From a virus, in IMG/VR virus record IMGVR_UViG_3300024177_000032, positions 1 through 29,244 of that record: a DNA stretch of 29,244 nucleotides; one strand, 5' to 3'. Numbering within the stretch: the stretch's first letter is position 1; each line of letters begins with the position of its first letter. This document shows positions 10,938 to 28,289 of the stretch, in pieces. Both the position numbers and the translations under genes were made by a program. A model generated the notes under the pieces. It was not told the origin of the DNA and searched no databases. It saw only the letters and a list, made by a program, of their open reading frames with translations.

Positions 10938-11027
10938 AAACTGCCTCCGGTTAAAGGATGATGCGGGCAGTCTCCTAAACGGTTGCATCCAGCCACCCGC
11001 CCGCGAAATGGAACCTCAAAGAAAACG

Positions 11028-11519
11028 GCAACCTTTCACTCGTATTCATGGGGCGTGTCGCCGCGCTCTTTCTCATTATCGCCAGGCACTCATTGAATCG
11101 TTTTCATCGCGTCATTCGCCCGGCGATTACCGCAAAAAATGGGCATTACCACTATCGGTTTCAAGGAAAGTGTCGCCCATTGACTCAAACATGAGGCAAA
11201 GCCTTTGTCGGTTTCACAGCCCTATTCGCCGCAAGCCCAAGAAACTTTGCCCGCCGTGCTCCATCGATTGAGGAATACCGCCCCTTTCGGAACGGGATGA
11301 GTTGAATGGGCCACGGACGGGCAAATTCTATGGGGCACCGCTCTTTTCGGTCGCACGCTGGCCATCGCCCTAAAAGCATCAGGCACACCACTTCTCGATT
11401 GCAAAACCCAGGCCGCCCAATATGTCAATGGGGCAATAGGACTTTCGATTTCACACCGAGTATCGCCCCAAAAGCCCAGAAATATCATTGGCTTACTCGA
11501 TTGCAACATCATGATGGAT
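11028..11519 (-). repeat. TIGR-like array, block B (seven clear elements)
   Basis: Clear elements start (plus-strand GCA) at 11028, 11086, 11143, 11196, 11335, 11383 and 11433. Each has exactly 9 bases, an 8-base loop, 9 bases and an ATCGC-type edge. Loops in plus reading are TCGTATTC, TCGTTTTC, TCGGTTTC, TCGGTTTC, TCGGTCGC, TCGATTGC and TCGATTTC. A weak eighth copy has loop TCGATTGC at 11498-11505 with poor edges. The 105 bases between 11230 and 11334 hold no clear copy and may contain decayed ones. The block fills the whole interval between the 172-residue gene and the Tas-like gene, with no believable ORF of its own. Confidence 0.85.
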
Positions 11520-11530
11520 GTTCCTGGGCC

Positions 11531-15129: not shown

Positions 15130-15330
15130 TTACTTAGAAGCCTTTTTGACCAATTCACTGATTTCAAGCAAGGGGTTTTCCTCCTCATACATTTGCCAGA
15201 TCGTCTCGAACGTCCAAACTACCGGGTAGCCGAACAGGTACGCCCCTTCGTCTTTCTTGAACCATCCGTTCTTATGGTGCTCCGCATACCCGGCGGCCAT
15301 CAGCAATTCCTTCTTTCGCTCGTCGGTCAT
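15130..15330 (-). CDS. Tagged 66-residue protein
   Basis: Start overlaps the previous stop (ATGA). Body: a basic helical start (MTDERKKELLMAAGYAEH) and an aromatic middle (LFGYPVVWTFETIWQM). The C-terminus ENPLLEISELVKKASK is a diverged tag: PL, I, LV and the final A are kept, while the usual AC is AS. It is the last tagged gene of the cascade. Confidence 0.7.
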   Translation of the reverse strand: MTDERKKELLMAAGYAEHHKNGWFKKDEGAYLFGYPVVWTFETIWQMYEEENPLLEISELVKKASK

Positions 15331-15629
15331 TTCCCCTGCTCCTTGTCCTTGACCGTTTCGAGGTGCCTTACGGCCTCCATGACCAGCCGCTCGATCTTGG
15401 GCTTGGTGTTCGCCATCGTCTCCGGGGCGTCGCTCTCGGATGTCGTCAATGATTCCAGCCAGGAGAGCATGGCCCCGTAAAGGTATAGTACGGTTTTCTC
15501 ATTGGCAGTCTTCGACTTCTCGATGAGGTCCTTGATCTCCCCTTCGGCGTCTGGGAGCTCCTTGAGCATGCCGGCGGACACGAAGGAGCCCAGCCACGAG
15601 GACATCCTGCCCAGATGATACAAGGTCAT
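15327..15629 (-). CDS. Unrecognised 100-residue helical protein with internal repeat
   Basis: The ATG at 15629 follows AGGAG by 14 bases. A TTG nine bases earlier would sit at 5 bases and could be the true start. The sequence contains an internal duplication, YHLGRMSSWLGSF near residue 4 and YLYGAMLSWLESL near 47, so the body is a repeated helix pair. No tag. The upstream spacer contains the 28-bp tandem duplication. Confidence 0.65.
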   Translation of the reverse strand: MTLYHLGRMSSWLGSFVSAGMLKELPDAEGEIKDLIEKSKTANEKTVLYLYGAMLSWLESLTTSESDAPETMANTKPKIERLVMEAVRHLETVKDKEQGK

Positions 15630-15650
15630 GGGATTCAAATCGGCTCCTGG

Positions 15651-15706
15651 TTCAGAAAGGGATATCGTCCTTGTCGGTTTCAGAAAGGGATATCGTCCTT
15701 GTCGGT
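15651..15706. repeat. 28-bp perfect tandem duplication
   Basis: Copies 15651-15678 and 15679-15706 are identical. The second contains the stop codon of the gene at 15680, so the first copy is only extra spacer before the next gene. Because 28 is not a multiple of three, it would have shifted the frame had it fallen inside a gene. Confidence 0.95.
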
Positions 15707-16021
15707 TTCCCTGAGCAATTTCTTCATCTCGATGAAGCAATCGTCCACGTAGATCAGTTTCTGCAATTCCCCCTTGAGGGCTTGCTCCAGATCGTTCAGG
15801 GCGGAATATTTATTCCTGGCGGCGTTCACCTGCTGCTGAAATTCCTGCTGCTTCTCCAATGTCTTCTGCCGCTCGAATATGCAAATCCGCAACCGCTCGA
15901 CAACATCGAGGATTCGCTTGGAATTGTCGTCAAGCAACGCCATATTGACCATGCGCTCAGTTACAGTTATCGGCATATCGATAACAACCTTTCCATTGCC
16001 GCTCAAAATATTTGTATTCAT
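15680..16021 (-). CDS. Coiled-coil protein, 113 residues
   Basis: ATG at 16021 overlaps the previous stop (ATGA). An in-frame earlier ATG exists at 16033. After a beta start (NILSGNGKVVIDMPITV) the protein is a long coiled coil: ILDVVERLRICIFERQK, KQQEFQQQVNAARNKY, LEQALKGELQKLI. It ends ETDKDDIPF with no tag. Likely an oligomeric accessory; family unknown. Confidence 0.7.
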   Translation of the reverse strand: MNTNILSGNGKVVIDMPITVTERMVNMALLDDNSKRILDVVERLRICIFERQKTLEKQQEFQQQVNAARNKYSALNDLEQALKGELQKLIYVDDCFIEMKKLLRETDKDDIPF

Positions 16022-16323
16022 TTCGCATGCCATAATTTGGATGCCAGTGGGCCTTTCCGCTCTTCCTTGGGCATCCCCAATTCCCATTTGCGGACCATTT
16101 CATCCATCGCTCTATCCACGTCCATGACCCCGTCTTCCTTGAGTCGTGCCTTCAGGCTATTGACATGATCCTTGAACCCCGGCGAGCAGGCACTGCATAC
16201 GCCCAGCCCCTCGTGGGCCAATCTGTAGATGGTTCCCAAATGACCGCTATCATCCGCTTGCTGCAAGGCGATCCCCTCTATTATCGCCAGGGCCGTCGCC
16301 AAGCGTATTTCCAGGTCAGTCAC
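16018..16323 (-). CDS. Helical protein with CSAC motif, 101 residues
   Basis: GTG start at 16323 overlaps the upstream stop (GTGA). The sequence is helical throughout (TDLEIRLATALAIIEGIALQ, VDRAMDEMVRKWELG), with one CSAC pair in the middle and a basic end. No tag is present. It lies between a tagged gene and the coiled-coil gene. Confidence 0.65.
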   Translation of the reverse strand: MTDLEIRLATALAIIEGIALQQADDSGHLGTIYRLAHEGLGVCSACSPGFKDHVNSLKARLKEDGVMDVDRAMDEMVRKWELGMPKEERKGPLASKLWHAK

Positions 16324-16493
16324 TCTTCGCACGCTTTCTCGACCAATTCCTCAATGTCCCGTAAAGGGTCGCGAGGGATGTATCCCATCTCTTCCATTTT
16401 CCTCTTCATCATCTTGAGGAATTGCTCCTTGCTAATGGCCTTCATGTCCAACATGGCGTTCGCGGTTTGCATCAGGGTGGCCAATTCATCCAT
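16320..16493 (-). CDS. Tagged small helical protein
   Basis: Start taken as ATG at 16493 (MDELATLMQTANAMLDM). A GTG at 16514 overlapping the previous gene has a better AGGG site and would add seven residues. Methionine-rich helix (QFLKMMKRKMEEMG) followed by RDPLRDIEELVEKACEE. Body function unknown. Confidence 0.65.
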   Translation of the reverse strand: MDELATLMQTANAMLDMKAISKEQFLKMMKRKMEEMGYIPRDPLRDIEELVEKACEE

Positions 16494-16503
16494 ATTGTAT
16501 TGA

Positions 16504-16776
16504 TCAGTCTTCACATGCCCTATCCACGAGGTTCTTGATGTCTTCCAAAGGATCCTTCGGGCTGAATAACTGGGCAAATGCCAATTCAAATTCAGCCTGT
16601 TTCCCAGCTTCTAAATTCCTATCAAGCATAAGAAGGTAGACATCCCCGGCCTGGACCAAACCACATATCATATTCACGTAAACCATGCTGCTATCCAGCT
16701 TTTCCAATCCCCGACATGCTGCGAATGTGTTTATGATGGCCCCAAAAATATTGATGCAAATAATTGTAGTGTTCAT
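16504..16776 (-). CDS. Tagged membrane-type protein
   Basis: 90 residues; ATG at 16776 or 16785. The N-terminus is a hydrophobic helix (TTIICINIFGAIINTFAA) and a second hydrophobic part follows (VYVNMICGLVQAGDVYLLML), so this tagged protein may sit in the membrane. The tag DPLEDIKNLVDRACED has a 23-base DNA identity (16517-16539) with the internal tag of the gene at 1582. It lies directly after the terminase nuclease gene. Confidence 0.65.
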   Translation of the reverse strand: MNTTIICINIFGAIINTFAACRGLEKLDSSMVYVNMICGLVQAGDVYLLMLDRNLEAGKQAEFELAFAQLFSPKDPLEDIKNLVDRACED

Positions 16777-16778
16777 GG

Positions 16779-17663
16779 CTACCATACACGGAGTCGCTGC
16801 ATGCCTCTTTCACCAAAGAAGAGTGCCAAAGCCACTGCCATGACGAGATCGTCGTGCGCCTGCCCCTCGGCCCCGGCGGTCTCGTTGGCGGCCTTGGTGA
16901 TTCGGATCTTAAATTCCCGCAATTCCTGGAGCAGCAATTCGACCTCCGGGATGCCCGCCGCGAAGCCCAGCCTCCCGGTCTCCAACATCACCGTCAATAG
17001 CCCGACCAATTCCATCTTGGGGACGTGGAAGCCCTTCGGCTCCTCGGTCACGGCCTTGCCGCCGGTGATGAGGATGGGCACGATCCTGATGCCCAAGCGA
17101 GCCCGCTGGAACATCTCCACGACCGGCTCGCCAACGCCACCCCAGTCTACGACCAGGACCGATTTCCCCTCTACTATTATAGGATGCTGGCAAAGCCTCT
17201 TGACGTACTTCACAATGTCAATGTAATCCGTGCCCAGGGGGAATTGCCTTAGCGCCCTGCCCTTGTAGTTGCGGACGAAATCCTTGGGCTTGTCCGTGGG
17301 CTCGGCTGGCGTCATGCCGTCATCGAAGGCCACCTCCCCAGCCCGGTAGGGATTAAGCTTGGAGGTAAGGTCGCCGCCTTGGGGCTTCTTGTCCCAGGGA
17401 TTTTCAATGGGCTTGAGGTCAACCAGGGCGTGACCGCCTTCCTTAAGCCTTATCGTGGCCAGGTACTGCTGGCAGTTCTTGCAGCTGCACGGAGATTCCT
17501 TCATTCCGCCTGGGTTCTCTTCCTCGATAAATCGCTTGGTGACAAGGCAACGGACTTTTGAGATGGGCTCAGCAACTGGCTCTAAGGGCATATCGACGCG
17601 CTCAATAAACGCGAGCGCTGCGAAATCTGATCTTTTTCCGAGGTCCAAGCCAAGGATATTCAT
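16779..17663 (-). CDS. terL (nuclease part): Terminase large subunit, nuclease half
   Basis: 294 residues from the ATG at 17663, which overlaps the tagged gene upstream. It begins with the RNase H-like nuclease core: MNILGLDLGKRSDFAALAFI (first acid D7 and D13), then VLVVDWGG (D173) and near the end HDDLVMAVALALFFGE (D271/D272), the three acidic positions of TerL nucleases that cut concatemers during packaging. Between the first and second acids, residues about 48-135 are an insertion with CSCKNC (59-64). No ATPase domain precedes it. That half is encoded 2.15 kb upstream at 19816-20733, so the enzyme is split and must associate in trans. Confidence 0.85.
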   Translation of the reverse strand: MNILGLDLGKRSDFAALAFIERVDMPLEPVAEPISKVRCLVTKRFIEEENPGGMKESPCSCKNCQQYLATIRLKEGGHALVDLKPIENPWDKKPQGGDLTSKLNPYRAGEVAFDDGMTPAEPTDKPKDFVRNYKGRALRQFPLGTDYIDIVKYVKRLCQHPIIVEGKSVLVVDWGGVGEPVVEMFQRARLGIRIVPILITGGKAVTEEPKGFHVPKMELVGLLTVMLETGRLGFAAGIPEVELLLQELREFKIRITKAANETAGAEGQAHDDLVMAVALALFFGERGMQRLRVW

Positions 17664-17860
17664 TTGCACGCCTCATCGACAAGGTCCGCGATATCCTCCA
17701 GCGGATCGTCAACCAGCCCAGCCATGAGCCATTCCTTATTGTATTCGTTGCTGGCCCTAGTCGCCTCGTCGTAGGAGATATCGACGCAATTGAATACGGC
17801 CATCTGGAACTCATAAGGAGTTCCGTGCTTTTCCTTCAATTTTCGTTGCGCCCTATTCAT
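17660..17860 (-). CDS. Tagged 66-residue protein
   Basis: Both ends overlap neighbours by ATGA. The body is a charged helical module (MNRAQRKLKEKHGTPYEF, SNEYNKEWLMAGLV) and the end DDPLEDIADLVDEACK is a full match to the tag. It directly precedes the terminase nuclease gene and is likely to supply its ribosome site. Confidence 0.75.
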   Translation of the reverse strand: MNRAQRKLKEKHGTPYEFQMAVFNCVDISYDEATRASNEYNKEWLMAGLVDDPLEDIADLVDEACK

Positions 17861-18252
17861 TGGTCCGCCCTTTCGACCAGGTTCCCGATCTCATATAGCT
17901 TGTCCTGCTCCAGCATCTCCTCGTAGACCTTGTGCAATTCGGACATCCGCCTGCCGAAATCATACCAGGCCGTGACATTGATGTCGATGCGGCATAAACT
18001 TATTCCCGGCTGAACAATGTGCAATTCCTCAGATTCGACCAGGAACCTGAATACATCCCTTTCGTGGATATGCTCCATCCCAACGATCTTAAACTTCCCC
18101 GGATCCAGGGCCTTGCCGTCGTATTCATATTCCACGCTCAAATGGCACGCAACCCAATCATGGCGGAACAGGTAGGGCATGTACTCCCTGGGGATCTCCA
18201 AATACGCCATCCGCTTCTCGTGTTTATTGTCATCCAGCATCTCGATTAGCAT
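17857..18252 (-). CDS. Protein with diverged tag, 131 residues
   Basis: ATG at 18252 with GAGGGCG upstream, overlapping the previous gene by 7 bases. The body has mixed alpha/beta character (KRMAYLEIPREYMPYLFR, HLSVEYEYDGK, INVTAWYDFGRRMSEL). It ends EQDKLYEIGNLVERADQ, where DPL has become DKL and the AC has become AD, while I, LV and A are kept. Confidence 0.7.
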   Translation of the reverse strand: MLIEMLDDNKHEKRMAYLEIPREYMPYLFRHDWVACHLSVEYEYDGKALDPGKFKIVGMEHIHERDVFRFLVESEELHIVQPGISLCRIDINVTAWYDFGRRMSELHKVYEEMLEQDKLYEIGNLVERADQ

Positions 18253-18476
18253 GAATCGCCCTCGCAAGCGTCCTCGACCAGGGCCTTGACGTCTTTCAAG
18301 GGGTCGTCGCTGATCTCCACGTACTTCTCGACGGTATAGGACATCACATCACCAACCTTCCATTGGAACGAAAGGCTCCTCACGTTCATCCGCTCCTCGC
18401 CGAGCAGTCGCAAGATCTTGCGGATGACCTCCCGGCCTTTCGCAGAATTGCTTGCTAGAATCGTAGACATAAGCAT
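18246..18476 (-). CDS. Tagged 76-residue protein
   Basis: Starts in TAATG with the previous stop. Short basic-helical body (STILASNSAKGREVIRKIL, ERMNVRSLSFQWKVGD) with a beta tail before SDDPLKDVKALVEDACEGDSC. Six residues follow the AC. Confidence 0.7.
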   Translation of the reverse strand: MLMSTILASNSAKGREVIRKILRLLGEERMNVRSLSFQWKVGDVMSYTVEKYVEISDDPLKDVKALVEDACEGDSC

Positions 18477-18862
18477 TACCCAATGAAAGGGAAGGGCTCT
18501 GGATCGTCCTTGCACGCTTCCCCGACCAATCTCCTGATGTCCTCCAGGGGATCCTCGTCTTCGCCCAGCTCGTCTGAATATGCCTCGATCCTGGTTATGA
18601 CATTTGTGTGCTCGACGCTCCTTACGATCATCTTGGCGTTTACCTTCCCTGAAATAGCGATACGATCTCCCACCCTAAAAGTAGGCAGGTGAATTTCGTC
18701 AATGACGATAACGGCTTCGAGCTGGGCGGGGCCTAGGACCTTTCCTTTGGTGCCATCCCTGTACTCGATATCAATGAGCTCCGTCCTATCGGCAATATCG
18801 AAGCGGATCACGGGCAAGCCGTTCACGAAAATGCCGGAAGGCCCGCAAAATGTCGTGGGCAT
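18476..18862 (-). CDS. Tagged SH3/KOW-like protein, 128 residues
   Basis: ATG at 18862 follows GGAAAAGAG. Strands such as GLPVIRFDIADRTELIDIEY, AVIVIDEIHLPTFRVGDRI and GKVNAKMIVRSVEH form a beta-barrel-like body with a VGD turn. The tag DPLEDIRRLVGEACKDD is followed by eight residues (PEPFPFIG). Confidence 0.7.
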   Translation of the reverse strand: MPTTFCGPSGIFVNGLPVIRFDIADRTELIDIEYRDGTKGKVLGPAQLEAVIVIDEIHLPTFRVGDRIAISGKVNAKMIVRSVEHTNVITRIEAYSDELGEDEDPLEDIRRLVGEACKDDPEPFPFIG

Positions 18863-18863
18863 A

Positions 18864-19049
18864 TCAGACGCTCTTTTCCGCCTTGGGCTTGTCTTCCGTA
18901 GCCCCGCACTCCCTGACGACGGACATCATCGCCATGCCGTTGGGCATCGTCTTGGCGGCGGTCTCGTAGCCGCAGGCGTAGATCGACCAGCCGTTATTGG
19001 CCCAGCCGGTGCAGATGCTGCCGCATTTCGGGCACTTTTCGCTTTCCAT
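18864..19049 (-). CDS. Zinc-ribbon protein, untagged
   Basis: Starts MESEKCPKCGSICTGWANNG with GGAGAG upstream. C6PKC9G and a later CGYE give a CxxC...C pattern, and WANNGW and CGYE match the next gene upstream (WASNGW, CGYEVG), so the two are paralogues. This copy has lost, or never gained, the tag and ends in a lysine-rich tail. Confidence 0.7.
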   Translation of the reverse strand: MESEKCPKCGSICTGWANNGWSIYACGYETAAKTMPNGMAMMSVVRECGATEDKPKAEKSV

Positions 19050-19050
19050 G

Positions 19051-19245
19051 CTAACTCTCCTTGTCTGGTTTGAGGTTATCTTCGCAAGCCTTGTCGATCA
19101 ATTTCCTGATGTCGTGTAGCGGATCCTCGTTCTTGCACAGGGCGTATACCCTCTTATCGATGCCGACCTCGTAGCCGCACTTGAATTTCCGCCAGCCGTT
19201 GCTGGCCCACGCTTCGCTACCAGCTCCGCATTTTGGGCATTGCAT
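19051..19245 (-). CDS. Tagged zinc-ribbon protein
   Basis: ATG at 19245 shares a base with the upstream stop (TAATG). MQCPKCGAGSEAWASNGWRK and FKCGYEV form a small zinc-ribbon-like unit, paralogous to the untagged gene that follows it. The C-terminus is EDPLHDIRKLIDKACEDN plus a charged end. Confidence 0.75.
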   Translation of the reverse strand: MQCPKCGAGSEAWASNGWRKFKCGYEVGIDKRVYALCKNEDPLHDIRKLIDKACEDNLKPDKES

Positions 19246-19556
19246 TATTCGCACGCTTTCTCGACCAGGTCGGCGATGTCCTGGAGTGGCCCGCGATGCT
19301 CGAATGCCAAAACAATCTCCCAGGAATCGGGCTGCCCGTCGAAATACGCCCCATTGCTGCTCTTGAGGTTGTTGCCAAACGGCCTCACCGACACGATCTT
19401 GGACACCTGGAAATCATCCAATAGCGGGTGCTTGGCCGTGAGGCAATACCGGACGGCCCTATTGATATCGCAATTCCCTGGAACGCGAATCATCATGTTG
19501 AGCAGGTCGATCCGGTCCGTCCAGCATTGCGTCCATATGAACGGGGCATTTTTCAT
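19245..19556 (-). CDS. Tagged 103-residue protein
   Basis: Starts by ATGA overlap. Body with many W, N and C residues (FIWTQCWTDRIDLLNMMIRV, CDINRAVRYCLTAKHPLL) and ends GPLQDIADLVEKACE. Its tag DNA (19249-19286) is identical over 38 bases to that of the gene at 23768-23977, although the bodies are unrelated. Confidence 0.75.
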   Translation of the reverse strand: MKNAPFIWTQCWTDRIDLLNMMIRVPGNCDINRAVRYCLTAKHPLLDDFQVSKIVSVRPFGNNLKSSNGAYFDGQPDSWEIVLAFEHRGPLQDIADLVEKACE

Positions 19557-19819
19557 TTGCACGCCTCCTCTACCAGGGACTTGATATTCCGCAAGGGATC
19601 CTCATAATCGGGAAGCCACGCCAATTCGCCCCTGACCAGCTCGAACCAATAGACCATATTCTCGTCGTCTTCCTCTTCCGCCCGTTTCATGGCTGTCTCG
19701 ACAGCCACCTTGGCGTATTCCATGCCGAGGCCCCTTACGAGGTCCTTGGCCTTGAGCCATGCTTTTTTGTCGTAACGGTAGGGCAGGTCAATATCGGACT
19801 GTCTTATTTTCCTGCTCAT
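19553..19819 (-). CDS. Tagged 88-residue protein after the terminase ATPase
   Basis: Starts by ATGA overlap with the terminase ATPase gene. The body is helical and acidic (KAWLKAKDLVRGLGMEYAK, ETAMKRAEEEDDENMVYW). Ends EDPLRNIKSLVEEACK. It occupies the point where an unsplit large terminase would continue into its nuclease domain. Confidence 0.75.
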   Translation of the reverse strand: MSRKIRQSDIDLPYRYDKKAWLKAKDLVRGLGMEYAKVAVETAMKRAEEEDDENMVYWFELVRGELAWLPDYEDPLRNIKSLVEEACK

Positions 19820-20733
19820 ACATCCACCCGATCATTCGCCGAGATGATCACCGGCTTTGGCCAGGTCGATTCATCGAAGAGGTCGAACGCATCGATGTCG
19901 TCCCGGACCGACTGGGCGATGGCCCATTCCGGGAACATCTGGCCGACAGCGTCCTCGAACGAGCAGCAGAACTCTTGCTTGTAAACCCGCTCGCCCTTCG
20001 CCTTCCGTTCATTATCGAGGAATTCCTTGGTCAGCCGGGGGCATTGGTCAGCAGTTATCTGGACTTTCTTCCAATCCTTCCCCTTGATCCATTGGTTATA
20101 GAACCAACCACGCTTCCCGAACGGCGTGGACAATACGATCTTCCTGCCGTGGGATACTGCGAGCATGGGGGTCACCGCGTCGTATAAAGCATCAAGTACA
20201 CGGGAAGCCTCGTCGATGACCAGCAATCCCACGGAGGAGTACGAGCGGATGTTACCCTCATTCTTTCCGGGTAGGGCCACGATACGCGATCCATTGCTAA
20301 ACTCCTTGGAAAACTCGTTGTTCTTGGTGATGGTAATAGCGGGGGCCTTTTCCTGGCTGTCCCCCATCCTGAAGGGGCGGTTGAGCCACGGCTCCAGGAA
20401 CGGCATGATCTTGGTCTTGAGCAATTCGATGGATTGGCGGTCGGTAGGGCTCAGGACCAGGATAAGGCAAGGGGCCTCGCACAATATGGCCTTGCTGACG
20501 ACGGACGCCGTGAGCTCCGATTTGCCGATCTGCCTTGATGCGCACAGGAAAAGGTTCTGGCGGGAATGGAGGCATTCCATCTGCCAAGGATCCGGCTGCA
20601 TATCCCTCTTGTGGAAGAGCCGCTCTGGGTACTTCCAGAGATAGTCGGTCTCGATCAGCCGATTCTGGCGGGCGCGCTCGGCCAGCGCCACGGCCCATCC
20701 CGGTACTCTTGGCATGTCGCTCATAAAGTCCAT
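19816..20733 (-). CDS. terL (ATPase part): Terminase large subunit, ATPase half
   Basis: 305 residues from the ATG at 20733, or 302 from 20724. Order of motifs: Walker A ASRQIGKS (65-72), a helix with LSPTDRQSIELLK, Walker B LLVIDEA (170-176), coupling motif LSTPFG (201-206). This is the packaging motor ATPase of tailed phages. The protein stops at SANDRVDV, just after the point where the RNase H-like nuclease usually begins. The nuclease is a separate gene at 16779-17663. The ORF is open upstream to 20913, but that part overlaps the broken tagged gene in another frame and is not believable. Confidence 0.9.
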   Translation of the reverse strand: MDFMSDMPRVPGWAVALAERARQNRLIETDYLWKYPERLFHKRDMQPDPWQMECLHSRQNLFLCASRQIGKSELTASVVSKAILCEAPCLILVLSPTDRQSIELLKTKIMPFLEPWLNRPFRMGDSQEKAPAITITKNNEFSKEFSNGSRIVALPGKNEGNIRSYSSVGLLVIDEASRVLDALYDAVTPMLAVSHGRKIVLSTPFGKRGWFYNQWIKGKDWKKVQITADQCPRLTKEFLDNERKAKGERVYKQEFCCSFEDAVGQMFPEWAIAQSVRDDIDAFDLFDESTWPKPVIISANDRVDV

Positions 20734-20760
20734 TTTACTTTGGCGGAGGGCGATTGTAAA
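20732..20760 (-). promoter_or_regulatory. Promoter just upstream of terminase ATPase
   Basis: TTTACA (20760-20755) and TAAAAT (20737-20732) with 17 bases between them. The RNA start would fall near 20725, at or beside the second ATG (20724), so translation from that transcript would be leaderless or nearly so. Confidence 0.55.
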
Positions 20761-20765
20761 GAAAA

Positions 20766-21079
20766 TTATCCACACGCCTCTTCGACAAGCCGCTTGATGT
20801 CGCGGAGCGGGTCCGGATAGTCCATTGCAAGCCTGTCCATGCAGACCTTCGGCGTGGCGGTATCCGCCCGGCCAATAGATGCAAATGACGTCTTCGTTAC
20901 GCAATAGATGCAAATGACGTCTTCGTTACGGTCGCCTTCCAAAGCATGTCGCCCATCCTGGAGATCAAAATAAACGGTTCAAGGGAAACGCAAACCGCGT
21001 CAGCGTAGTAGGCTGCCCCGCTTCGCAGCATATGCACTGGCGAAAGTGGACTCACAATGTCGCCCACGCGAATGCTCAT
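20766..21079 (-). pseudogene. Tagged VGDIVSP protein broken by a 29-bp duplication
   Basis: From the ATG at 21079 (ATGA overlap) the frame reads MSIRVGDIVSPLSPVHML and then stops (TAA) at the junction of two 29-bp copies (20873-20901 and 20902-20930). Removing one copy restores a 94-residue protein that continues GRADTATPKVCMDRLAMDYP and ends DPLRDIKRLVEEACG. This repaired product aligns along its whole length with the upstream neighbour at 21076-21372 (VGDIVSP, AVCVS..PF, GRAD, DYPDP). The gene is thus a recently disrupted paralogue unless the duplication is an assembly artefact. Confidence 0.85.
20873..20930. repeat. 29-bp perfect tandem duplication
   Basis: Copies 20873-20901 and 20902-20930 are identical with no flanking homology. 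Being 2 modulo 3 in length, it shifts the frame of the tagged gene that contains it. Confidence 0.95.
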
Positions 21080-21372
21080 TTACATGCCTCCTTGACCAAA
21101 GCAGTTAACTCCCGGAACGGATCCGGGTATTCCTTATCGAACTTCTCCATGCACCGATGCATGGTTTCCTGATCGGCCCTGCCCGTAACCATGAACATCA
21201 TGGGATAAACCGACCATTTCCAAATCAAGCACCCGTCTTCGGAAGCCAGGACGAATGGGTCTGTCGATACGCATACGGCCTGATAGTAGGATTTAAGCGG
21301 TTCGCGGGCCACCGCCCCTGCCCATAGCTGTTGCGGCATGATCGGGCTCACGATATCGCCTACGCTAATCAT
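21076..21372 (-). CDS. Tagged VGDIVSP protein, intact paralogue
   Basis: ATG at 21372 overlaps the upstream stop. 98 residues: a small beta barrel (SVGDIVSPIMPQQLWAG, QAVCVSTDPFVLASEDG), a GRADQETMHRC turn and helix, and the tag DPFRELTALVKEACK, in which L is F and DI is EL. It is the model for the broken gene next to it. Confidence 0.75.
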   Translation of the reverse strand: MISVGDIVSPIMPQQLWAGAVAREPLKSYYQAVCVSTDPFVLASEDGCLIWKWSVYPMMFMVTGRADQETMHRCMEKFDKEYPDPFRELTALVKEACK

Positions 21373-21566
21373 TCGCACGCCCTCTCGACAAGCCGTTTGA
21401 CATCAAAAAACGGGTCGACGGCCTCGGTATTGCTCTCCAGCCAAGGGGCTCGTATAATACCCTCCTCAACCATCAACGCCAGCCCCTTCAAGTAATCACA
21501 TTCGCCGACCACGATTCCCACATTCCCCACCTTATGCCTCACCTTCGTGCCGATGGGGTATTTCAT
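21369..21566 (-). CDS. Tagged KOW-like protein, 65 residues
   Basis: ATG at 21566 follows GGAGG and overlaps the upstream stop. KYPIGTKVRHKVGNVGIVVG is a typical KOW/SH3-like strand-turn-strand. It ends VDPFFDVKRLVERACE. Confidence 0.75.
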   Translation of the reverse strand: MKYPIGTKVRHKVGNVGIVVGECDYLKGLALMVEEGIIRAPWLESNTEAVDPFFDVKRLVERACE

Positions 21567-21862
21567 TTGCAAGCCTCCTTCACCAGCTCCTCGACCTCCC
21601 ACAAGGGGTTGTCGTACTTGCACGGGATGTCGATCTCGGTTTCAAACATCATATCATTGCCCATTCCAATCACTGTGCCGAAAGTCTCCATCAGTATCCA
21701 TAGCTGCCATTCGCTCCAGCCGTCGGCGTCTTCCTTCGGCGGATGGTATTCCCTATCCGGCTGGTCGATGGACTCCCAGAAATCCTTCCAGTATTTCCTG
21801 TGCCATTCCTTGCCTTCCTTGGTCAACCTGACCCGGACATTATTATTGATGTTGAACTTCAT
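21563..21862 (-). CDS. Tagged 99-residue tryptophan-rich protein
   Basis: Starts by ATGA overlap. The body has many W and Y residues (KEWHRKYWKDFWESID, GWSEWQLWILMETFG). It ends NPLWEVEELVKEACK, where DPL is NPL and DI is EV. Confidence 0.7.
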   Translation of the reverse strand: MKFNINNNVRVRLTKEGKEWHRKYWKDFWESIDQPDREYHPPKEDADGWSEWQLWILMETFGTVIGMGNDMMFETEIDIPCKYDNPLWEVEELVKEACK

Positions 21863-22134
21863 TGATCGGCCCTGTGAACGAGGTTCACCATATCTCGTAA
21901 GGGGTCGTTTTCAGCAAGCCTGCCGATGAAATCCCTCACCAAGAACCTGAAATCGGCGTTGCTCCTCAGCAGCTCGTAATCAGCATCATCCAGGCCCGGC
22001 GGCTTTTTCCCCACTTGCTCCAGTAATAAAGCCGCCCCTTCGTAGCCATAATGGCCTATCAGCCCATTGGCGAATTTGTTCGCCTTGTCCATGAGCAGGA
22101 TGAAAACGTCAATTTCCTCCTTGAACTTCTCCAT
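21859..22134 (-). CDS. Tagged helical protein, 91 residues
   Basis: ATG at 22134 with GAGGAA upstream. Contains YGYEGAALLLEQ, also seen as YGYEGAVADIV in the gene at 22366, so the two share a module. Ends NDPLRDMVNLVHRADQ, with AC replaced by AD. Confidence 0.7.
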   Translation of the reverse strand: MEKFKEEIDVFILLMDKANKFANGLIGHYGYEGAALLLEQVGKKPPGLDDADYELLRSNADFRFLVRDFIGRLAENDPLRDMVNLVHRADQ

Positions 22135-22136
22135 CG

Positions 22137-22391
22137 CTATTCCTCGCACGCCTTATGCGTGAGGTCCGCGATATCCACCAAGTCGCCCATCTCGTCGATC
22201 ATCGCTTTGATTTCCCTGGCGACCATCCGCATTTCCCGCTGCCGATGCCAATCCAAACCGCCCTGGCGTATTTGATCATAAGCCAGCTCCAGGGCCTTCC
22301 GGTATCCATGAACATTCACCAACAACATGGCACGCCGCTTGACTTTGGCCTTCACGTAGCCGGCGTCATTCTCGAATATGCTCTTCGCCAT
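22137..22391 (-). CDS. Tagged helical protein, 84 residues
   Basis: Overlaps the upstream gene by 26 bases. Basic helical body (KAKVKRRAMLLVNVHGYRKA, WHRQREMRMVAREIK). The tag is LVDIADLTHKACEE: DPL is changed but DI, L and AC remain. It ends with the GAGGAA site of the next gene. Confidence 0.7.
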   Translation of the reverse strand: MAKSIFENDAGYVKAKVKRRAMLLVNVHGYRKALELAYDQIRQGGLDWHRQREMRMVAREIKAMIDEMGDLVDIADLTHKACEE

Positions 22392-22704
22392 CGGACAGCC
22401 CCATTTTAGCCATCATATCTATTATCGGCCGCAGCGGGTCTTCCCGGTAATCATCCAGGGCATGCTGAACGAGGCAAAGGTGGTTGTGCCGCTCGTCGAA
22501 TTCCTTCTTCCCGTCCAGAACCTCCCGCTCCCTGACAATGTCAGCGACAGCCCCTTCGTACCCGTACATCACGTATCGCCTATACGCCTCGGCCCGGATC
22601 GCCTTTAGCTGCTTGGCCATGTTTTCGTAAAGCAGCCTGTGCATTTCATTCTGATCGAACGCCTTGCTTTTGAGATGACCCAGAACATCTTGTTCCAATC
22701 CCAT
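22366..22704 (-). CDS. Helical protein with degenerate tag, 112 residues
   Basis: ATG at 22704 follows GAGGAA. Helical throughout (EMHRLLYENMAKQLKAIR, YGYEGAVADIVREREVL). DPLRPIIDMMAKMG near the end keeps DPL and the I/M pattern but has lost LV and AC. The remaining tail GLSDGEEHIRE is unlike other members. It probably descends from a tagged gene. Confidence 0.65.
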   Translation of the reverse strand: MGLEQDVLGHLKSKAFDQNEMHRLLYENMAKQLKAIRAEAYRRYVMYGYEGAVADIVREREVLDGKKEFDERHNHLCLVQHALDDYREDPLRPIIDMMAKMGLSDGEEHIRE

Positions 22705-22706
22705 AG

Positions 22707-22925
22707 CTATTCCTCGCATGCCTTTTCAACAAGCTGCCTGATATCGAACAGCTGATCCTTAATAACACGATGCGGAAAATCTTCGATCCTCATTGAGTCA
22801 ATCGGACCTGACTTGTAGAAGCTCGGCCAGTACACGCGGCCATCCGTGATATGCGTGACGGTTATCGTATGGAGCTTACCGTGGTAATCCTTCAGCACAT
22901 ACTGCCCGCCGACCCTGATGTTCAT
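22707..22925 (-). CDS. Tagged KOW-like protein, 72 residues
   Basis: ATG at 22925 with AAGGAA upstream. NIRVGGQYVLKDYHGKLHTI and TVTHITDGRVYWPSF form a small beta barrel. The tag is DQLFDIRQLVEKACEE. Confidence 0.75.
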   Translation of the reverse strand: MNIRVGGQYVLKDYHGKLHTITVTHITDGRVYWPSFYKSGPIDSMRIEDFPHRVIKDQLFDIRQLVEKACEE

Positions 22926-22927
22926 CG

Positions 22928-23098
22928 CTATTCCTTGCATGCCGCGTCGACCAGGTTCCTGATGTCCTCAAGCGGGTCTTCCGGCTTGATATCCTGCCGG
23001 TAATGGACAGTCACAATAAACGAGCCGTCCGGGTTCAGCGTCCGCTCCATCCTCTCGATCCTGAACGTGGGCCACTCATCAATCTCACGCAGGTTCAT
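22928..23098 (-). CDS. Tagged 56-residue protein
   Basis: ATG at 23098 with GGAGGGG upstream. It overlaps the previous gene by 14 bases. A beta meander (TFRIERMERTLNPDGSFIVT) is followed by EDPLEDIRNLVDAACKE. It is one of the smallest bodies, so half of the protein is tag or its linker. Confidence 0.75.
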   Translation of the reverse strand: MNLREIDEWPTFRIERMERTLNPDGSFIVTVHYRQDIKPEDPLEDIRNLVDAACKE

Positions 23099-23765: not shown

Positions 23766-23767
23766 GG

Positions 23768-23977
23768 CTATTCTCCCTCGCACGCTTTCTCGACCAGGTC
23801 GGCGATGTCCTGGAGCGGATCCCTTTCAGGCTCCGGCTCCTCGAATTGGTCGTCGTACCATTCGTAATCGGCATCGTAATTACCCCTGCAATCGACGCAC
23901 ATGACATTTGCGTTGCCGACGATCAACAGCTTTCCGCATCGGCTGCAAGTGTCAAGATCCGGGTAGCTGTTCTTCAT
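23768..23977 (-). CDS. Tagged zinc-ribbon protein, 69 residues
   Basis: ATG at 23977 with AAAGGG upstream. CSRCGKLL and MCVDCRG give CxxC...CxxC, a zinc ribbon, then an acidic stretch (YDDQFEEPEPE) and RDPLQDIADLVEKACEGE. It shares a 38-base identical tag DNA with the gene at 19245-19556. Confidence 0.8.
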   Translation of the reverse strand: MKNSYPDLDTCSRCGKLLIVGNANVMCVDCRGNYDADYEWYDDQFEEPEPERDPLQDIADLVEKACEGE

Positions 23978-24170
23978 CGCATGCCCTTTCCACCAATTCC
24001 CTGATTTCCAGCAAGGGATCCGGTTTAGCGTTCCCTTTATCAATCCAGCATTCCCAACAAAGATTGTCGTCATGCCGATCCTTAATGGGGATCTTCTTGT
24101 CGCACATCCAGCATTTACTCTTCCGTATCCTTTTGCTTGGGGATGTCTTCCTCCGGCCATTCCTCGTCAT
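23952..24170 (-). CDS. Tagged zinc-ribbon protein overlapping the small terminase gene
   Basis: ATG at 24170 has a textbook AGGAGG site, although it overlaps the small terminase gene by 56 bases. A later ATG at 24107 would lose the first cysteine pair. KCWMCDKK and LCWECW form CxxC...CxxC. The tag is PDPLLEIRELVERACDE plus six residues. Confidence 0.75.
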   Translation of the reverse strand: MTRNGRRKTSPSKRIRKSKCWMCDKKIPIKDRHDDNLCWECWIDKGNAKPDPLLEIRELVERACDEEQLPGS

Positions 24171-24894: not shown

Positions 24895-24958
24895 CCGTGT
24901 AGTTAAATTGGCGGGAAGGTTAATCAGATAATGAATCCGGCTAACGGCGTCTGGCCGG

Positions 24959-25195
24959 TCAATTGCATGCCTCTTCCACGAGCTTGGCGATGTCGTCCAG
25001 CGGATCCCTGACGCCGATCAATTTCCTGAATTCCCTCATGGGAAGCCATTCTTTCTTACCCGTAGCCCAATGACCCCTCCTGAAGCTGACAATCCCCTTC
25101 TTGTTCACGCCCATCACCGTCACTCTGTCCCACGCCGTCCTGCCGTCCGGCATTTCGACAGCAATGGTGAATGCATCACCCTGCATCAAAGTCAT
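24959..25195 (-). CDS. Tagged small beta-barrel protein, 78 residues
   Basis: ATG at 25195 by ATGA overlap. MTLMQGDAFTIAVEMPDGRT and VTVMGVNKKGIVSFRRG are beta strands with tight turns. The tag is RDPLDDIAKLVEEACN. It is the gene upstream of the small terminase gene, from which it is separated by 64 bases, one of the few gaps here. Confidence 0.75.
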   Translation of the reverse strand: MTLMQGDAFTIAVEMPDGRTAWDRVTVMGVNKKGIVSFRRGHWATGKKEWLPMREFRKLIGVRDPLDDIAKLVEEACN

Positions 25196-25449
25196 GATTG
25201 GCATGCCCCCTCCACCAACAGGGCGATGTCGAATAATGGATCCTTCTCCAGCTCCATTTTTTCAGCAAGCGCCCCGGTGTAGGCATTGTACACGTTCTCG
25301 CCGCCGTTGCCGTAGCGGATTCTATACGAGCCGGACTCGACATTCATCCAGATTACTGTGCGGGGCGTATCGTCGTTGCTCACCTTGAATGGGGGCTTGG
25401 GATATCCCCTGCCTTCCTTCGCCAACCTGAATACGTCCGCCAATGTCAT
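25192..25449 (-). CDS. Tagged 85-residue protein
   Basis: Starts by ATGA overlap. Begins TLADVFRLAKEGRGYPK, then a beta body (RTVIWMNVESGSYRIRYG) and the tag KDPLFDIALLVEGACQS. N-terminal similarity to the next gene upstream (NDLQKLFNDVENGKRPMPR) suggests common ancestry. Confidence 0.75.
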   Translation of the reverse strand: MTLADVFRLAKEGRGYPKPPFKVSNDDTPRTVIWMNVESGSYRIRYGNGGENVYNAYTGALAEKMELEKDPLFDIALLVEGACQS

Positions 25450-25727
25450 GATTCGCACGCCTCCAGCACCAGGTCTCTGATGTCCTTGAGCGGGTCCTCG
25501 ACCAGGTCGAATAGGCAAAGGCCGCTCAAATCGAATACGTTCTCGGAACGCTCGTGGCGGTAGCGGACCTTGAATTTCCTTTTGATAAGATCAACCTCGA
25601 TGACCTCACGGCCGTCGCATTGATCGTTCTGCATATTGGGGAATATGCGGCGGATCGCCAGCGGCAATCTGGGCATGGGTCTTTTGCCATTCTCGACGTC
25701 ATTGAACAGCTTCTGGAGGTCGTTCAT
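25446..25727 (-). CDS. Tagged 93-residue protein
   Basis: ATG at 25727 by ATGA overlap. Body NDLQKLFNDVENGKRPMPRL followed by strands (EVIEVDLIKRKFKVRYRHE). The tag is EDPLKDIRDLVLEACES. The start and RIRYG/KVRYR segments resemble the gene at 25192, so they are probable paralogues. Confidence 0.75.
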   Translation of the reverse strand: MNDLQKLFNDVENGKRPMPRLPLAIRRIFPNMQNDQCDGREVIEVDLIKRKFKVRYRHERSENVFDLSGLCLFDLVEDPLKDIRDLVLEACES

Positions 25728-26182
25728 CGGTAGGCCCTCTCGACAAGGTCCTTGATGTCGGCCAACGGGTCCCATCCGCCGACCTTTAGTGAAACCACTT
25801 CGGCCGATTCCAGCTTCTCGAAATAGCCCTTCCACGGCTCCCAGCCGACATAAGTCCCATCCTCGATGGTCTTCCTTATGGATTCGGCGGAGCCCTCGCT
25901 ATCGTAAACGCCCACAATATGCCACGCCCCGGTCGTGCTCCCGAAAGTCCCGCCGGTCCTGTAGCGGACCAGGACGACGTGAATCATAGGGCATGCGTCG
26001 AAATCGATCTGCACCTGCTCCCTTTGAAGGCCGGGCATCTCGGAAACGTCTTTCTGGCATGCCACCAGCTCGAAGTCGATGACCTCATCCTCGTGGCTCG
26101 GCCACGGATCGTCCTCCTGCCCGGCGCATATCTCCCCGCCGGAGCGCGATTCCCGGTAGAACAGATTCAGTGCGGCGACCAT
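25724..26182 (-). CDS. Tagged 152-residue protein
   Basis: ATG at 26182 with GGGAG upstream, 2 bases after the previous stop. It is the longest tagged body: an acidic alpha/beta domain (DEVIDFELVACQKDVSEMP, IHVVLVRYRTGGTFGSTTG, GWEPWKGYFEKLESAEVV) ending WDPLADIKDLVERAYR, in which C is Y. Family unknown. Confidence 0.7.
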   Translation of the reverse strand: MVAALNLFYRESRSGGEICAGQEDDPWPSHEDEVIDFELVACQKDVSEMPGLQREQVQIDFDACPMIHVVLVRYRTGGTFGSTTGAWHIVGVYDSEGSAESIRKTIEDGTYVGWEPWKGYFEKLESAEVVSLKVGGWDPLADIKDLVERAYR

Positions 26183-26184
26183 AA

Positions 26185-26412
26185 TCAAAACTCCCGCAGC
26201 AGCGTCAGCGATTCCATCGCCTCGTCGTCGGCCTTCTTGTTCCTTATGGCCTCGTTGGGCGTTCGGCCTTTGCCGAGGAATTTCCATTTGCCGCCAACGC
26301 ACGCCCAACCGTGATTGACGCAGCGCGGGATGGCCTCTGAATGGCGTATGGGAATAGCCCGGCCGCATTGGGAGCATTCGTACCAAGATCGGTTACACTT
26401 GGTCTTCTTCAT
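26185..26412 (-). CDS. Zinc-ribbon protein, 75 residues, untagged
   Basis: Starts MKKTKCNRSWYECSQCGRAI, with a second CVNHGWAC, giving a CxxC / CxxH type knuckle. GGKWKFLGKG recalls WELVGKG of the next gene upstream, so the two may be paralogues. It ends in a helical segment (DDEAMESLTLLREF) without the tag. Confidence 0.65.
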   Translation of the reverse strand: MKKTKCNRSWYECSQCGRAIPIRHSEAIPRCVNHGWACVGGKWKFLGKGRTPNEAIRNKKADDEAMESLTLLREF

Positions 26413-26416
26413 GACC

Positions 26417-26680
26417 CTAATCCCTCGCCAGGGCTACCATATCCTTCAGCGTCCGGCGGGTCTCGGCGTCCTCGATATCCACGCCCTTGCCGACCAGTTC
26501 CCAATCGTGCAGCGATATGTCATGGGGAAACCCGTTCTTACTCCAATTGTCCCACATGCGCATATCCACGAACCCCTCATCCTTGGGCTTGAAGCAAATG
26601 CCCACCCACGTGCCGTTTTCGGAGACCTCGCCGCAATGCACGCATTTGTACCAATTGACAAGCTTCTTCCTGACCTTCAT
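26417..26680 (-). CDS. Small protein with single CxxC, 87 residues
   Basis: ATG at 26680 with GGAGAACGG upstream, overlapping the previous stop. CVHCGEVSENGTWVGICF carries one CxxC and a third Cys, possibly half a zinc ribbon. The C-terminal RRTLKDMVALARD is only distantly like the tag (L, V, A spacing), and I do not count it as one. Confidence 0.6.
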   Translation of the reverse strand: MKVRKKLVNWYKCVHCGEVSENGTWVGICFKPKDEGFVDMRMWDNWSKNGFPHDISLHDWELVGKGVDIEDAETRRTLKDMVALARD

Positions 26681-26916
26681 CCGTTCTCCTCATTGGCCCT
26701 ATCCACCAGGTCCTTGATGTCGTCCAGGGGGTCGGCGTCCCGCGTCGGCAAGTCCACGTTCTGCGGGTCGAATACCTCCCCGTCCCTGAACTGGACGCCG
26801 TACTGGTAATGGCCGTAGTAACCGTCCATCCAGAAAGCGATCTCCCATTTGCCGGTCAGGGGATGCCTGGTCATTCGGTGGTAGCTGCTCATGACTAGCA
26901 CGCACCTGCAATTCAT
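26677..26916 (-). CDS. Tagged 79-residue protein
   Basis: ATG at 26916 by ATGA overlap, or 26892. Strand-rich aromatic body (GKWEIAFWMDGYYGHYQY, VQFRDGEVF). The tag is ADPLDDIKDLVDRANEENG, with AC replaced by AN. Confidence 0.7.
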   Translation of the reverse strand: MNCRCVLVMSSYHRMTRHPLTGKWEIAFWMDGYYGHYQYGVQFRDGEVFDPQNVDLPTRDADPLDDIKDLVDRANEENG

Positions 26917-27098
26917 GTGGATTCAGCCGCGATAACAAGGTTCAGGATGTCGTCAAGGGGGTCCGCCTCCCTGCATTCCTGGACCTGCCCGCCTACGACT
27001 TCCAAGCCGCTGGCAAACGTGAAAACCCATTCCCCGGCCCGCCACGACCACTCGCCCTCCTCCCACCTGCCGGTATTCGGGTTCTTGAAGACGATCAT
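26913..27098 (-). CDS. Tagged 61-residue protein
   Basis: Beta-rich body (GRWEEGEWSWRAGEWVFTF). Its start IVFKNPNTGRWE and the start of the gene at 26677 (TRHPLTGKWEIAF) have a common x-TG-x-W pattern. The tag is ADPLDDILNLVIAAEST, with AC changed to AA. Confidence 0.7.
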   Translation of the reverse strand: MIVFKNPNTGRWEEGEWSWRAGEWVFTFASGLEVVGGQVQECREADPLDDILNLVIAAEST

Positions 27099-27099
27099 T

Positions 27100-27336
27100 T
27101 CACTTCTTCCGTTTCATGCCCTTGTACTTAGAGGGTCCTTCACACTTGAGCATCAGCACGTTCTTGCCGTTGACCTTGACCACTTTGTGCGGCCGGTACA
27201 AGTAGCCATCGACCTCATAGACCTGGGCCGTGTTGTGCTCATATTCCATCGAGTTGGCGGTCTCCTTGAACTTGCGGCCGTCCAGGGGGCCGCCGACCAT
27301 CTCCACGTAATCGTGGGTCCTTGCGTCGCGATCCAT
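27100..27336 (-). CDS. VGGPLDG-type small phage protein
   Basis: 78 residues from the ATG at 27336, which has GGAGAGG at a good distance. An earlier ATG at 27408 coincides with the predicted RNA start. DYVEMVGGPLDGRKFKE is the MVGGPxDG pattern frequent in small phage proteins of unknown function. It continues with strands (YEVDGYLYRPHKVVKV) and a basic end. No tag. Confidence 0.7.
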   Translation of the reverse strand: MDRDARTHDYVEMVGGPLDGRKFKETANSMEYEHNTAQVYEVDGYLYRPHKVVKVNGKNVLMLKCEGPSKYKGMKRKK

Positions 27337-27414
27337 ACGTCGCCTCTCCAGCGTCTTGCAATGGTGCTGGACGTCATCCAGGAACCAGGTGTTTTGGTAA
27401 GTGATCATGCCGTA

Positions 27415-27443
27415 ATTATACAGCCTATACTACCGAAAGTAAA
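27415..27443 (-). promoter_or_regulatory. Promoter inside the cascade
   Basis: TTTACT (27443-27438) and perfect TATAAT (27420-27415) with 17-base spacing. It lies just after the tag end of the upstream gene and starts RNA near 27408. Confidence 0.75.
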
Positions 27444-27446
27444 GGG

Positions 27447-27646
27447 TTAGGGCGGCTCCTCGCACGCCTCCTCGACCAGTTCCTTGATCCCCCCCCCCCA
27501 AGCGGGTCGTCCTCGGCCCAAAAATAGCGGTAACATTCCCCGCACCTGTAAATGAATAAGCAGGGCCTCGTTGGATGGACTCCCTCGTACTTGGCAATAT
27601 GCACCCTCTGCCGTTTGCCATCCCCTTTGCAAAGTGGGCATATCAT
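27447..27646 (-). pseudogene. Tagged zinc-ribbon gene with frame break at a G10/C10 run
   Basis: From the ATG at 27646 (ATGA overlap) the protein begins MICPLCKGDG and later CGECYRYFWAEDDPL, a CxxC...CxxC zinc ribbon running into the tag. At 27489-27498 there is a run of ten C (G10 on the coding strand). Read as it stands, the frame shifts and gives an unrelated arginine-rich end stopping at 27425. With nine or twelve G the tag frame IKELVEEACEEPP (stop 27447) follows directly. It could be phase variation, a recent slip or a sequencing error. Confidence 0.8.
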
Positions 27647-28104
27647 TCGTACCGTTCCCCTTCCGGGCTGCCGGTATGGAACACCAGCATTTCTTCGAGC
27701 TTCCTCACCTTGGCCTTCTGGTGCCCCAAAGCCCCCTCAAGCTCCTTGATCCGTTCCGTCGCGTAATCTGCGTTGTAAGGGCAGCCGGAAAGCAAGGACG
27801 ACGTGAACCTGTCGCAATTGGTCATCATCTTGTCCTTGCCCAGCAACGCCAACTGCTCCGGCGTGACCGTAATCCCTACCAGCTTGCCGAGCATTACGTA
27901 GACATCCATCCAGCAAACTGCGTCTGCCTGTTGCGTGACTACGGAAAGGACCGCTTCCCGCATCTTGTCGTATTCCTTGCCGATGTTGAGGTAATGCTGG
28001 AGGGAAACGGCAAGGCGGTCGGCAACGTCTGGCCGGCCCGGCCCGGCGGCTTTCTTATTGAGGAAATCCAGGAACTTCCGCAATTCGATCTCCTGCTCGC
28101 TCAT
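27643..28104 (-). CDS. Helical 153-residue protein, untagged
   Basis: ATG at 28104 with GAGGAACAG upstream. Helical with a C-terminal coiled coil (YATERIKELEGALGHQK, VRKLEEMLVF). The middle (AVCWMDVYVMLGKLVG) is hydrophobic. No family is recognised. It follows a tagged gene and is followed by the frame-broken one. Confidence 0.7.
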   Translation of the reverse strand: MSEQEIELRKFLDFLNKKAAGPGRPDVADRLAVSLQHYLNIGKEYDKMREAVLSVVTQQADAVCWMDVYVMLGKLVGITVTPEQLALLGKDKMMTNCDRFTSSLLSGCPYNADYATERIKELEGALGHQKAKVRKLEEMLVFHTGSPEGERYE

Positions 28105-28289
28105 GGCTGTTCCTCGCATGCCTTGTCGACCAATCTTTTGATATCGTGCAACAGATCAGGAAACTTCCCCAAGAGAAACGCCCAATAGCATCGCCCGCAA
28201 TACCAGTTGCCATCGCTCCCTTTGGTCAGCGGATCCCCAATCTCTGAAGCCTTGAGCCCGCATCGCTTGCAAACGTCGGCAATGGTCAT
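28101..28289 (-). CDS. Tagged zinc-ribbon protein, 62 residues
   Basis: ATG at 28289 by ATGA overlap. CKRCGLKA and YCGRCYWAF form CxxC...CxxC. The tag is DLLHDIKRLVDKACEEQP, with DPL changed to DLL. The GAGGAACA end supplies the next ribosome site. Confidence 0.75.
   Translation of the reverse strand: MTIADVCKRCGLKASEIGDPLTKGSDGNWYCGRCYWAFLLGKFPDLLHDIKRLVDKACEEQP

Follow-up and report, generated by a model that had tools for sequence, protein, structure and literature searches.

Why should dozens of mostly unrelated small proteins of a single virus end in the same short peptide? The question is raised by a 29,244 bp stretch of DNA, the whole virus record IMGVR_UViG_3300024177_000032 of IMG/VR (the window in what follows), in which a sequence-only reading had described a C-terminal peptide, DPLxDIxxLVxxAC, on about 27 small proteins between positions 15130 and 28289. 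A 14-column profile of this peptide (the tag) was seeded with 27 of the window's own copies and applied to open reading frames (ORFs) with a cut-off of at least 14 bits. It detects 30 tagged ORFs on the minus strand, 28 inside 15130-28289 and the other two at 9156 and 1582. None was found on the plus strand (top score 10.0) or among shuffled ORFs (13,480 ORFs in 20 rounds, maximum 13.7), and the description of the peptide is thereby borne out. Scores of the 27 seeds are not independent of the profile; the matches at 22137 and 27447, together with eight on an adjoining contig, stand outside the seeds, and the copy at 1582 is identical in its 14 residues to one seed.

The adjoining contig, IMGVR_UViG_3300024177_000018 (31,808 bp), was found by a back-translated tag scan of viral contigs. 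Over exactly 41 nt, the right end of this contig is identical to the window's right end read in reverse complement, and a 284-aa reading frame stays open over the junction. We take the two to be neighbouring parts of a single phage genome, about 61 kb or more in size, and the contig was therefore rejected as independent evidence from a second tagged phage. The eight further tagged ORFs bring the total to 38; the reverse strand of the adjoining contig reaches a top score of 11.6 bits, under the cut-off. According to a simple gene caller, which misses 10 of the 38 tagged ORFs, tagged genes are 22 of 60 in the window and 6 of 56 in the adjoining contig.

Conservation and codon choice were compared in 36 tags. 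Column conservation is highest at L9 (36/36), V10 and A13 (34/36 each), P2 (32/36) and C14 (28/36), and positions 4, 7, 8, 11 and 12 are variable. Codons at shared residues are identical in 44.0% of 4,921 comparisons, against 40.2% when codons are drawn at random according to their usage in 25 genes from both contigs (300 simulations), so that codons indeed vary while residues persist, as had been proposed. Because the residues persist and synonymous sites are nearly saturated, it is the peptide itself that is maintained. Near-random synonymous sites likewise speak against the recent insertion of a DNA element as the general origin of the tags, and this explanation was rejected. The tag is predicted to be an acidic amphipathic helix, assigned from prediction and periodicity only: in 32 tags the hydrophobic moment is 0.58, compared with 0.30 after shuffling, and the mean net charge is -2.1 (range -6 to 0).

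In 34 of the 38 ORFs the tag lies at most 11 residues from the C-terminus, and the 1 to 11 residues that follow it have no constant sequence. Four copies are non-terminal. ORF 1582 had been counted among the C-terminal carriers, which does not hold, as its tag is followed by 72 more residues. On the adjoining contig, 24 residues follow the tag in ORF 1-123, and 58 follow a weak tag without AC in ORF 21964-22275. The fourth is a UDG-exonuclease (adjoining contig 8783-10156), in which the core LGDIKNLVDEAC is located between the UDG match (residues 73-217) and the exonuclease match (279-448). Its homologues in Lysinibacillus phage LysYB1, an uncultured Myoviridae record and Streptomyces phage KimJongPhill have a shorter interdomain stretch. 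The tag would thus be an extra stretch in the linker, apparently missing from these three homologues, since the spacing of the HP motif puts the canonical UDG helix of the query before the tag. The four non-terminal copies are evidence against roles that require a free C-terminus. Among all 38, one weak copy sits near an N-terminus.

Judged by sequence, the bodies that carry the tag are mostly unrelated. Among 35 tag-less bodies, phmmer finds two related pairs at E ≤ 0.01 (20766/21076 and 26677/26913), and three more only at E 0.05-0.08. The proposed lack of relationship therefore stands for most bodies and fails for these paralogues and for 19051, whose neighbouring paralogue 18864 is untagged, pointing to gain or loss of the tag. 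Zinc-ribbon-type bodies agree with CxxC pairs present in some ORFs, and one of the suggested barrels (9156) models as a Tudor/SH3-like barrel. In this moderate-confidence model (pLDDT 75, alignment of five sequences) the folded barrel is followed by a separate C-terminal helix, residues 71-82, which is the tag, in line with the amphipathic helix suggested earlier; in the fold search Z was as high as 6.8, perhaps only through a common barrel arrangement. The model of a 202-aa tagged protein (pLDDT 41) was too poor for use. Searches with 33 tagged proteins gave a lowest Pfam E-value of 0.0079. All 33 were also scanned against PHROGs, with single listings for 20, and three matches below 1e-4 (phrog_5792, 17597 and 10176, function unknown) each stop ahead of the tag. 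Body searches with the largest tagged protein and with ORF 1582 gave no match among phages. The tagged ORFs of the window are as follows.

28101-28289, minus: zinc-ribbon-like ORF, tag DLLHDIKRLVDKAC; weak zf-FPG_IleRS match, E = 0.015
27425-27704, minus: zinc-ribbon-like ORF (27425-27646) and out-of-frame tag GIKELVEEAC (ORF 27447-27704)
26913-27098, minus: tagged ORF, DPLDDILNLVIAAE, paralogue of 26677
26677-26892, minus: tagged ORF, DPLDDIKDLVDRAN, paralogue of 26913
25724-26182, minus: tagged ORF, DPLADIKDLVERAY
25446-25727, minus: tagged ORF, possibly barrel-like, DPLKDIRDLVLEAC
25192-25449, minus: tagged ORF, DPLFDIALLVEGAC
24959-25195, minus: tagged ORF, possibly barrel-like, DPLDDIAKLVEEAC
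23952-24170, minus: tagged ORF with CxxC, DPLLEIRELVERAC
23768-23977, minus: tagged ORF with CxxC, DPLQDIADLVEKAC
22928-23098, minus: tagged ORF, DPLEDIRNLVDAAC
22707-22925, minus: tagged ORF, possibly barrel-like, DQLFDIRQLVEKAC
22137-22328, minus: tagged ORF, divergent tag GDLVDIADLTHKAC, 19.6 bits
21859-22134, minus: tagged ORF, DPLRDMVNLVHRAD
21563-21862, minus: tagged ORF, NPLWEVEELVKEAC; residues 2-76 resemble part of phrog_5792 (1.3e-8), ending ahead of the tag
21369-21566, minus: tagged ORF, DPFFDVKRLVERAC
21076-21372, minus: tagged ORF, DPFRELTALVKEAC; residues 3-79 resemble the C-terminal end of phrog_17597 (171-242 of 243), the tag lying past the profile
20766-21079, minus: paralogue of 21076, body 20897-21079, tag DPLRDIKRLVEEAC in ORF 20766-20942
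19553-19819, minus: tagged ORF, DPLRNIKSLVEEAC
19245-19556, minus: tagged ORF, GPLQDIADLVEKAC
19051-19245, minus: tagged ORF with CxxC, DPLHDIRKLIDKAC; untagged paralogue at 18864-19049
18476-18862, minus: tagged ORF, DPLEDIRRLVGEAC
18246-18389, minus: tagged ORF, DPLKDVKALVEDAC
17857-18252, minus: tagged ORF, DKLYEIGNLVERAD
17660-17860, minus: tagged ORF, DPLEDIADLVDEAC
16504-16686, minus: tagged ORF, DPLEDIKNLVDRAC
16320-16493, minus: tagged ORF, DPLRDIEELVEKAC; body residues 8-29 weakly SHOCT_2-like, E = 0.058
15130-15330, minus: tagged ORF, NPLLEISELVKKAS
9156-9407, minus: tagged Tudor/SH3-like barrel, DPLDDIRELVVSAC; tag is helix 71-82 in the model
1582-1938, minus: ORF with non-terminal tag DPLEDIKNLVDRAC, overlapping a head-morphogenesis-like ORF (834-1700)

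Two of these are interrupted. The tag of 27447 is in a different frame from the zinc-ribbon-like body, with an 11-G run between them (27489-27499, minus strand), which may be either a sequencing error or a slippery tract. In 20766, a 29-nt tandem duplication (20873-20930, minus strand) breaks the frame between body and tag. Possible decayed tags are also seen, as ...CDPAEACK at the C-terminus of ORF 8168-8362 on the adjoining contig, and as ...DPLRPIIDMMAKMG near the C-terminus of ORF 22366-22704 (window, minus strand).

We consider it slightly more probable than an even chance that the peptide is a docking helix, an address tag that brings the many small proteins and the UDG-exonuclease to one common partner. 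D1-P2 would cap the helix, and L3, I6, L9/V10 and A13/C14 would form one face, fitting into a groove, hydrophobic and probably basic, of a single intracellular partner shared by all. Small accessory proteins and the UDG-exonuclease would in this way be gathered at one place, and the partner would most plausibly be a phage-encoded hub of the replication or packaging machinery. The combination of body and tag may further represent a convenient cassette, since the start site of the following gene mostly lies within or beside the tag codons. For most small phage genes the role or location is not known, and one shared peptide would offer a single handle on dozens of them; a true docking code would stand out among phages for the size of its addressing system and would provide a portable tag. 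More speculatively, and with doubtful prospects, the tag could be a genome-wide address code, in which one helix on roughly a quarter of genes builds an intracellular compartment or scaffold of a non-jumbo phage, and cassettes of body, tag and ribosome site plug in new accessory proteins.

A number of observations weigh against docking. Codon identity slightly exceeds the random expectation, a level reached in 4 of 300 simulated sets, and certain pairs of tags are close in DNA (23768 and 19245 share 39 of 42 nt, 16504 and 1582 share 38 of 42), so some tags were copied more recently and have a common recent DNA ancestry. A ribosome-binding-like site often falls on positions 11-14, and conservation there may be partly at the nucleotide level. 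The untagged paralogue 18864 exists. The match of 19553 to phrog_1245 (E = 0.0017) extends into the tag, to residue 84 of 88, and that of a zinc ribbon on the adjoining contig to phrog_26310 (E = 0.0029) reaches residue 54, its tag beginning at 50. At 25-28% identity, the UDG-exonuclease alignment pairs the tag with the homologues' last UDG helix. Finally, every tag found belongs to a single genome.

The same coincidence with ribosome-binding-like sites raises the question of whether the 3' codons serve the following gene, as a module for ribosome binding and start-stop overlap, with the peptide as a by-product. At 34 tagged ends, candidate starts of ORFs of at least 40 aa, unverified as genes, were scanned. 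A candidate start overlaps the stop or sits within 8 nt of it at 26 ends; the overlap takes the form ATGA at 15 of the 34 and GTG at one, and about 22 of the 26 have a ribosome-binding-like stretch of at least 4 nt that starts ahead of the stop. ORF 8168-8362 of the adjoining contig, moreover, lacks the core and still has DP..AEACK and the ATGA overlap. The remaining eight ends are without such a start, including 16320, where a GTG overlapping the stop was excluded by the scan rule, and seven of the eight retain A-C. The DPLxDIxxLV half is upstream of the site and persists with free codons, and non-terminal copies serve no gene start. The need for a start site gives positions 11-12 a nucleotide reason, and DPLxDIxxLV, the eight uncoupled ends and the non-terminal copies are outside its reach. 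A gene-junction element is in our judgement highly improbable as the explanation, and as sole cause it is largely excluded; we take the use of tag codons as the next gene's start site to be a second role, not the main one.

Three further explanations concern the peptide itself. As a capsid cargo signal, the helix would bind the prohead interior or scaffold, and the small proteins would be packaged and injected with DNA, like T4 internal proteins. Along the same strand of the window, 18 of the 30 tags are upstream of the terminase ATPase ORF and seven are between the ATPase and nuclease ORFs, and one tag is in the ORF that overlaps the head-morphogenesis-like gene. The known P1 signal is N-terminal, however, as is that of T4; the UDG-exonuclease is tagged as well, five C-terminal and three other copies are on the contig with replication genes, and neither a major capsid protein nor a scaffold was recognised among the genes scanned. 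We regard packaging as unlikely, and the UDG-exonuclease copy together with the spread of tags across replication and packaging regions weakly favours an intracellular phage hub over it. Mutual bundling of tag helices, perhaps through the conserved Cys, would give mixed assemblies without a separate hub. The coiled-coil-like spacing of L3/I6/V10/A13 is consistent with such self-association, and a string of two tags matched a 'circular tendon repeat protein' (E = 0.00093) and a designed helical peptide (E = 1.2) in PDB within a limit of 10, although stretch by stretch they are weak, at 3 to 8 bits. Because a helix of two to three turns is short for stable bundling, and most copies are acidic (net charge -6 to 0), we consider this option improbable. 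A degradation signal for a host or phage protease that limits small-protein levels would fit the location of 34 of 38 copies at or near the C-terminus, chiefly on small proteins; given the 1 to 11 variable residues that trail the tag in those 34, and the four non-terminal copies, one in a large enzyme, we assign it very little probability.

Short targeting helices shared by diverse proteins have known precedents, and the tag would work in the manner of microcompartment encapsulation peptides or the T4 capsid-targeting sequence. In T4, the capsid-targeting sequence is N-terminal and is cut by a prohead protease. One source describes one short conserved segment on the highly diverse accessory proteins of the phage, the T4 internal proteins (PMC3012670); in P1, an N-terminal DarB signal suffices to bring a reporter into the capsid, and the Dar proteins have no common consensus (PMC9024508). 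The tag resembles the T4 sequence as one short segment on diverse phage proteins, and differs from the N-terminal T4 and P1 signals in being C-terminal or internal, near the C-terminus in 34 of 38. Encapsulation peptides of bacterial microcompartments are described as amphipathic helices of 10-20 residues on core enzymes, at the N- or C-terminus or in flexible surface loops (PMC6971018). The predicted tag helix is similarly short, amphipathic, terminal or in a loop, and on different proteins, but it has a fixed acidic DPLxDIxxLVxxAC core and occurs in a phage. SHOCT, as described, has about 30 residues, two predicted amphipathic helices, strongly conserved Gly and Glu, and a function left open (PMC3581485). 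The tag is likewise short, mainly C-terminal, amphipathic and on many proteins, as is SHOCT (SHOCT_2 = PF20612), and differs as a single 14-residue helix. In Cluster K mycobacteriophages, a repeated start-associated element is described at genes of different families, with a proposed role in translation initiation (PMC3203893). Those sequences are conserved as DNA, whereas the tag is conserved as a peptide, with variable DNA. To our knowledge, the scale of one tag within a single phage is unusual.

The tag matches no scanned family model. Curated models of C-terminal sorting signals of the PEP-CTERM and LPXTG kind were matched by none of the 33 tagged proteins (Pfam E ≤ 0.1; NCBIfam E ≤ 0.5), and the 11 families listed in each library include none of sorting-signal type. 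The sole SHOCT-type match among these proteins (E ≤ 0.1) is to the body of 16320 and not to its tag, HMMER filters hiding most weaker matches. The consensus for binding to the sliding clamp or PCNA is QLxLF or QxxLxxFF; inspected by eye, the column table of 36 tags has neither an aromatic pair nor a leading Gln, a comparison that leaves other clamp-binding modes unaddressed. A clamp-like candidate (adjoining contig 6972-8057) has a sub-threshold Pfam match (E = 0.0055), and its PDB matches at E ≤ 1 are antibody chains. Pfam matches of the selected genes scanned from this incomplete genome include no microcompartment shell family.

Other carriers were searched for with five exact tag patterns on viral contigs, which gave 12, 11, 13, 13 and 4 matches in the window and at most one in the adjoining contig. 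The scans matched 1, 1, 11, 2 and 4 contigs, and because the patterns are exact, diverged tags in other phages would escape them. All matches except the adjoining contig were judged to be chance. In ten other contigs of the 11-contig scan, the stretch is in an open frame in two, by a looser protein pattern, 5 residues from the stop of a 19-residue frame and 29 from that of a 44-residue frame. The other contig of the two-contig scan shows, on inspection by eye, NPLLVIVLFVELAC some 44 residues ahead of the frame end, and in the four contigs of the last scan the stretch ends frames of 23 to 41 residues, with no profile match above 12 bits. A scan of genome contigs gave two matches, one interrupted by a stop and the other 66 residues from the frame end. 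With two joined tags, tblastn found no match in phages or plasmids at E ≤ 10, and the search for relatives through the terminase and through contig ends gave nothing new. The tag was thus not found outside this genome in the searched collections, which may omit records of the same or a very near genome. A narrow literature search in open-access PMC returned no relevant report on shared C-terminal motifs of phage proteins.

The window encodes terminase, portal and head-morphogenesis-like genes. Among the genes scanned on the adjoining contig, replication is represented by UDG with polA-type exonuclease, polA polymerase, a clamp-loader-like AAA, a RecA-like, a 5'-3' exonuclease, a resolvase and a Mom-like gene. 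Terminase parts in the window are the following.

19816-20913, minus: terminase large subunit, ATPase part, untagged
16779-17669, minus: probable terminase nuclease part, untagged; Terminase_6C E = 0.0065, under its cut-off

Over 41-46% of its length, ORF 16779-17669 is 27-31% identical to terminases of Thermus phages, and terminase relatives include Thermus phage Riverbug and Meiothermus phage MMP17. The large terminase is seemingly split, the ATPase ORF being followed after about 2.1 kb by the nuclease ORF, with seven tagged and one untagged ORF in the gap. DNA polymerase A of the adjoining contig is split as well, into the UDG-exonuclease ORF (8879-10156), an untagged 91-aa ORF (10146-10421) and the polymerase ORF (10406-11857). 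An untagged, helical-looking ORF of the window (15680-15976, minus strand) ends in DDIPF, a tip like that at the C-terminus of bacterial single-strand binding proteins. A transposase-like ORF lies within the phage at 10062-10988 (window, minus strand; phrog_4285, 5e-7), and the portal protein (5373-7508, minus strand) ends in a long part in which VNVP/VNVQ-type stretches recur.

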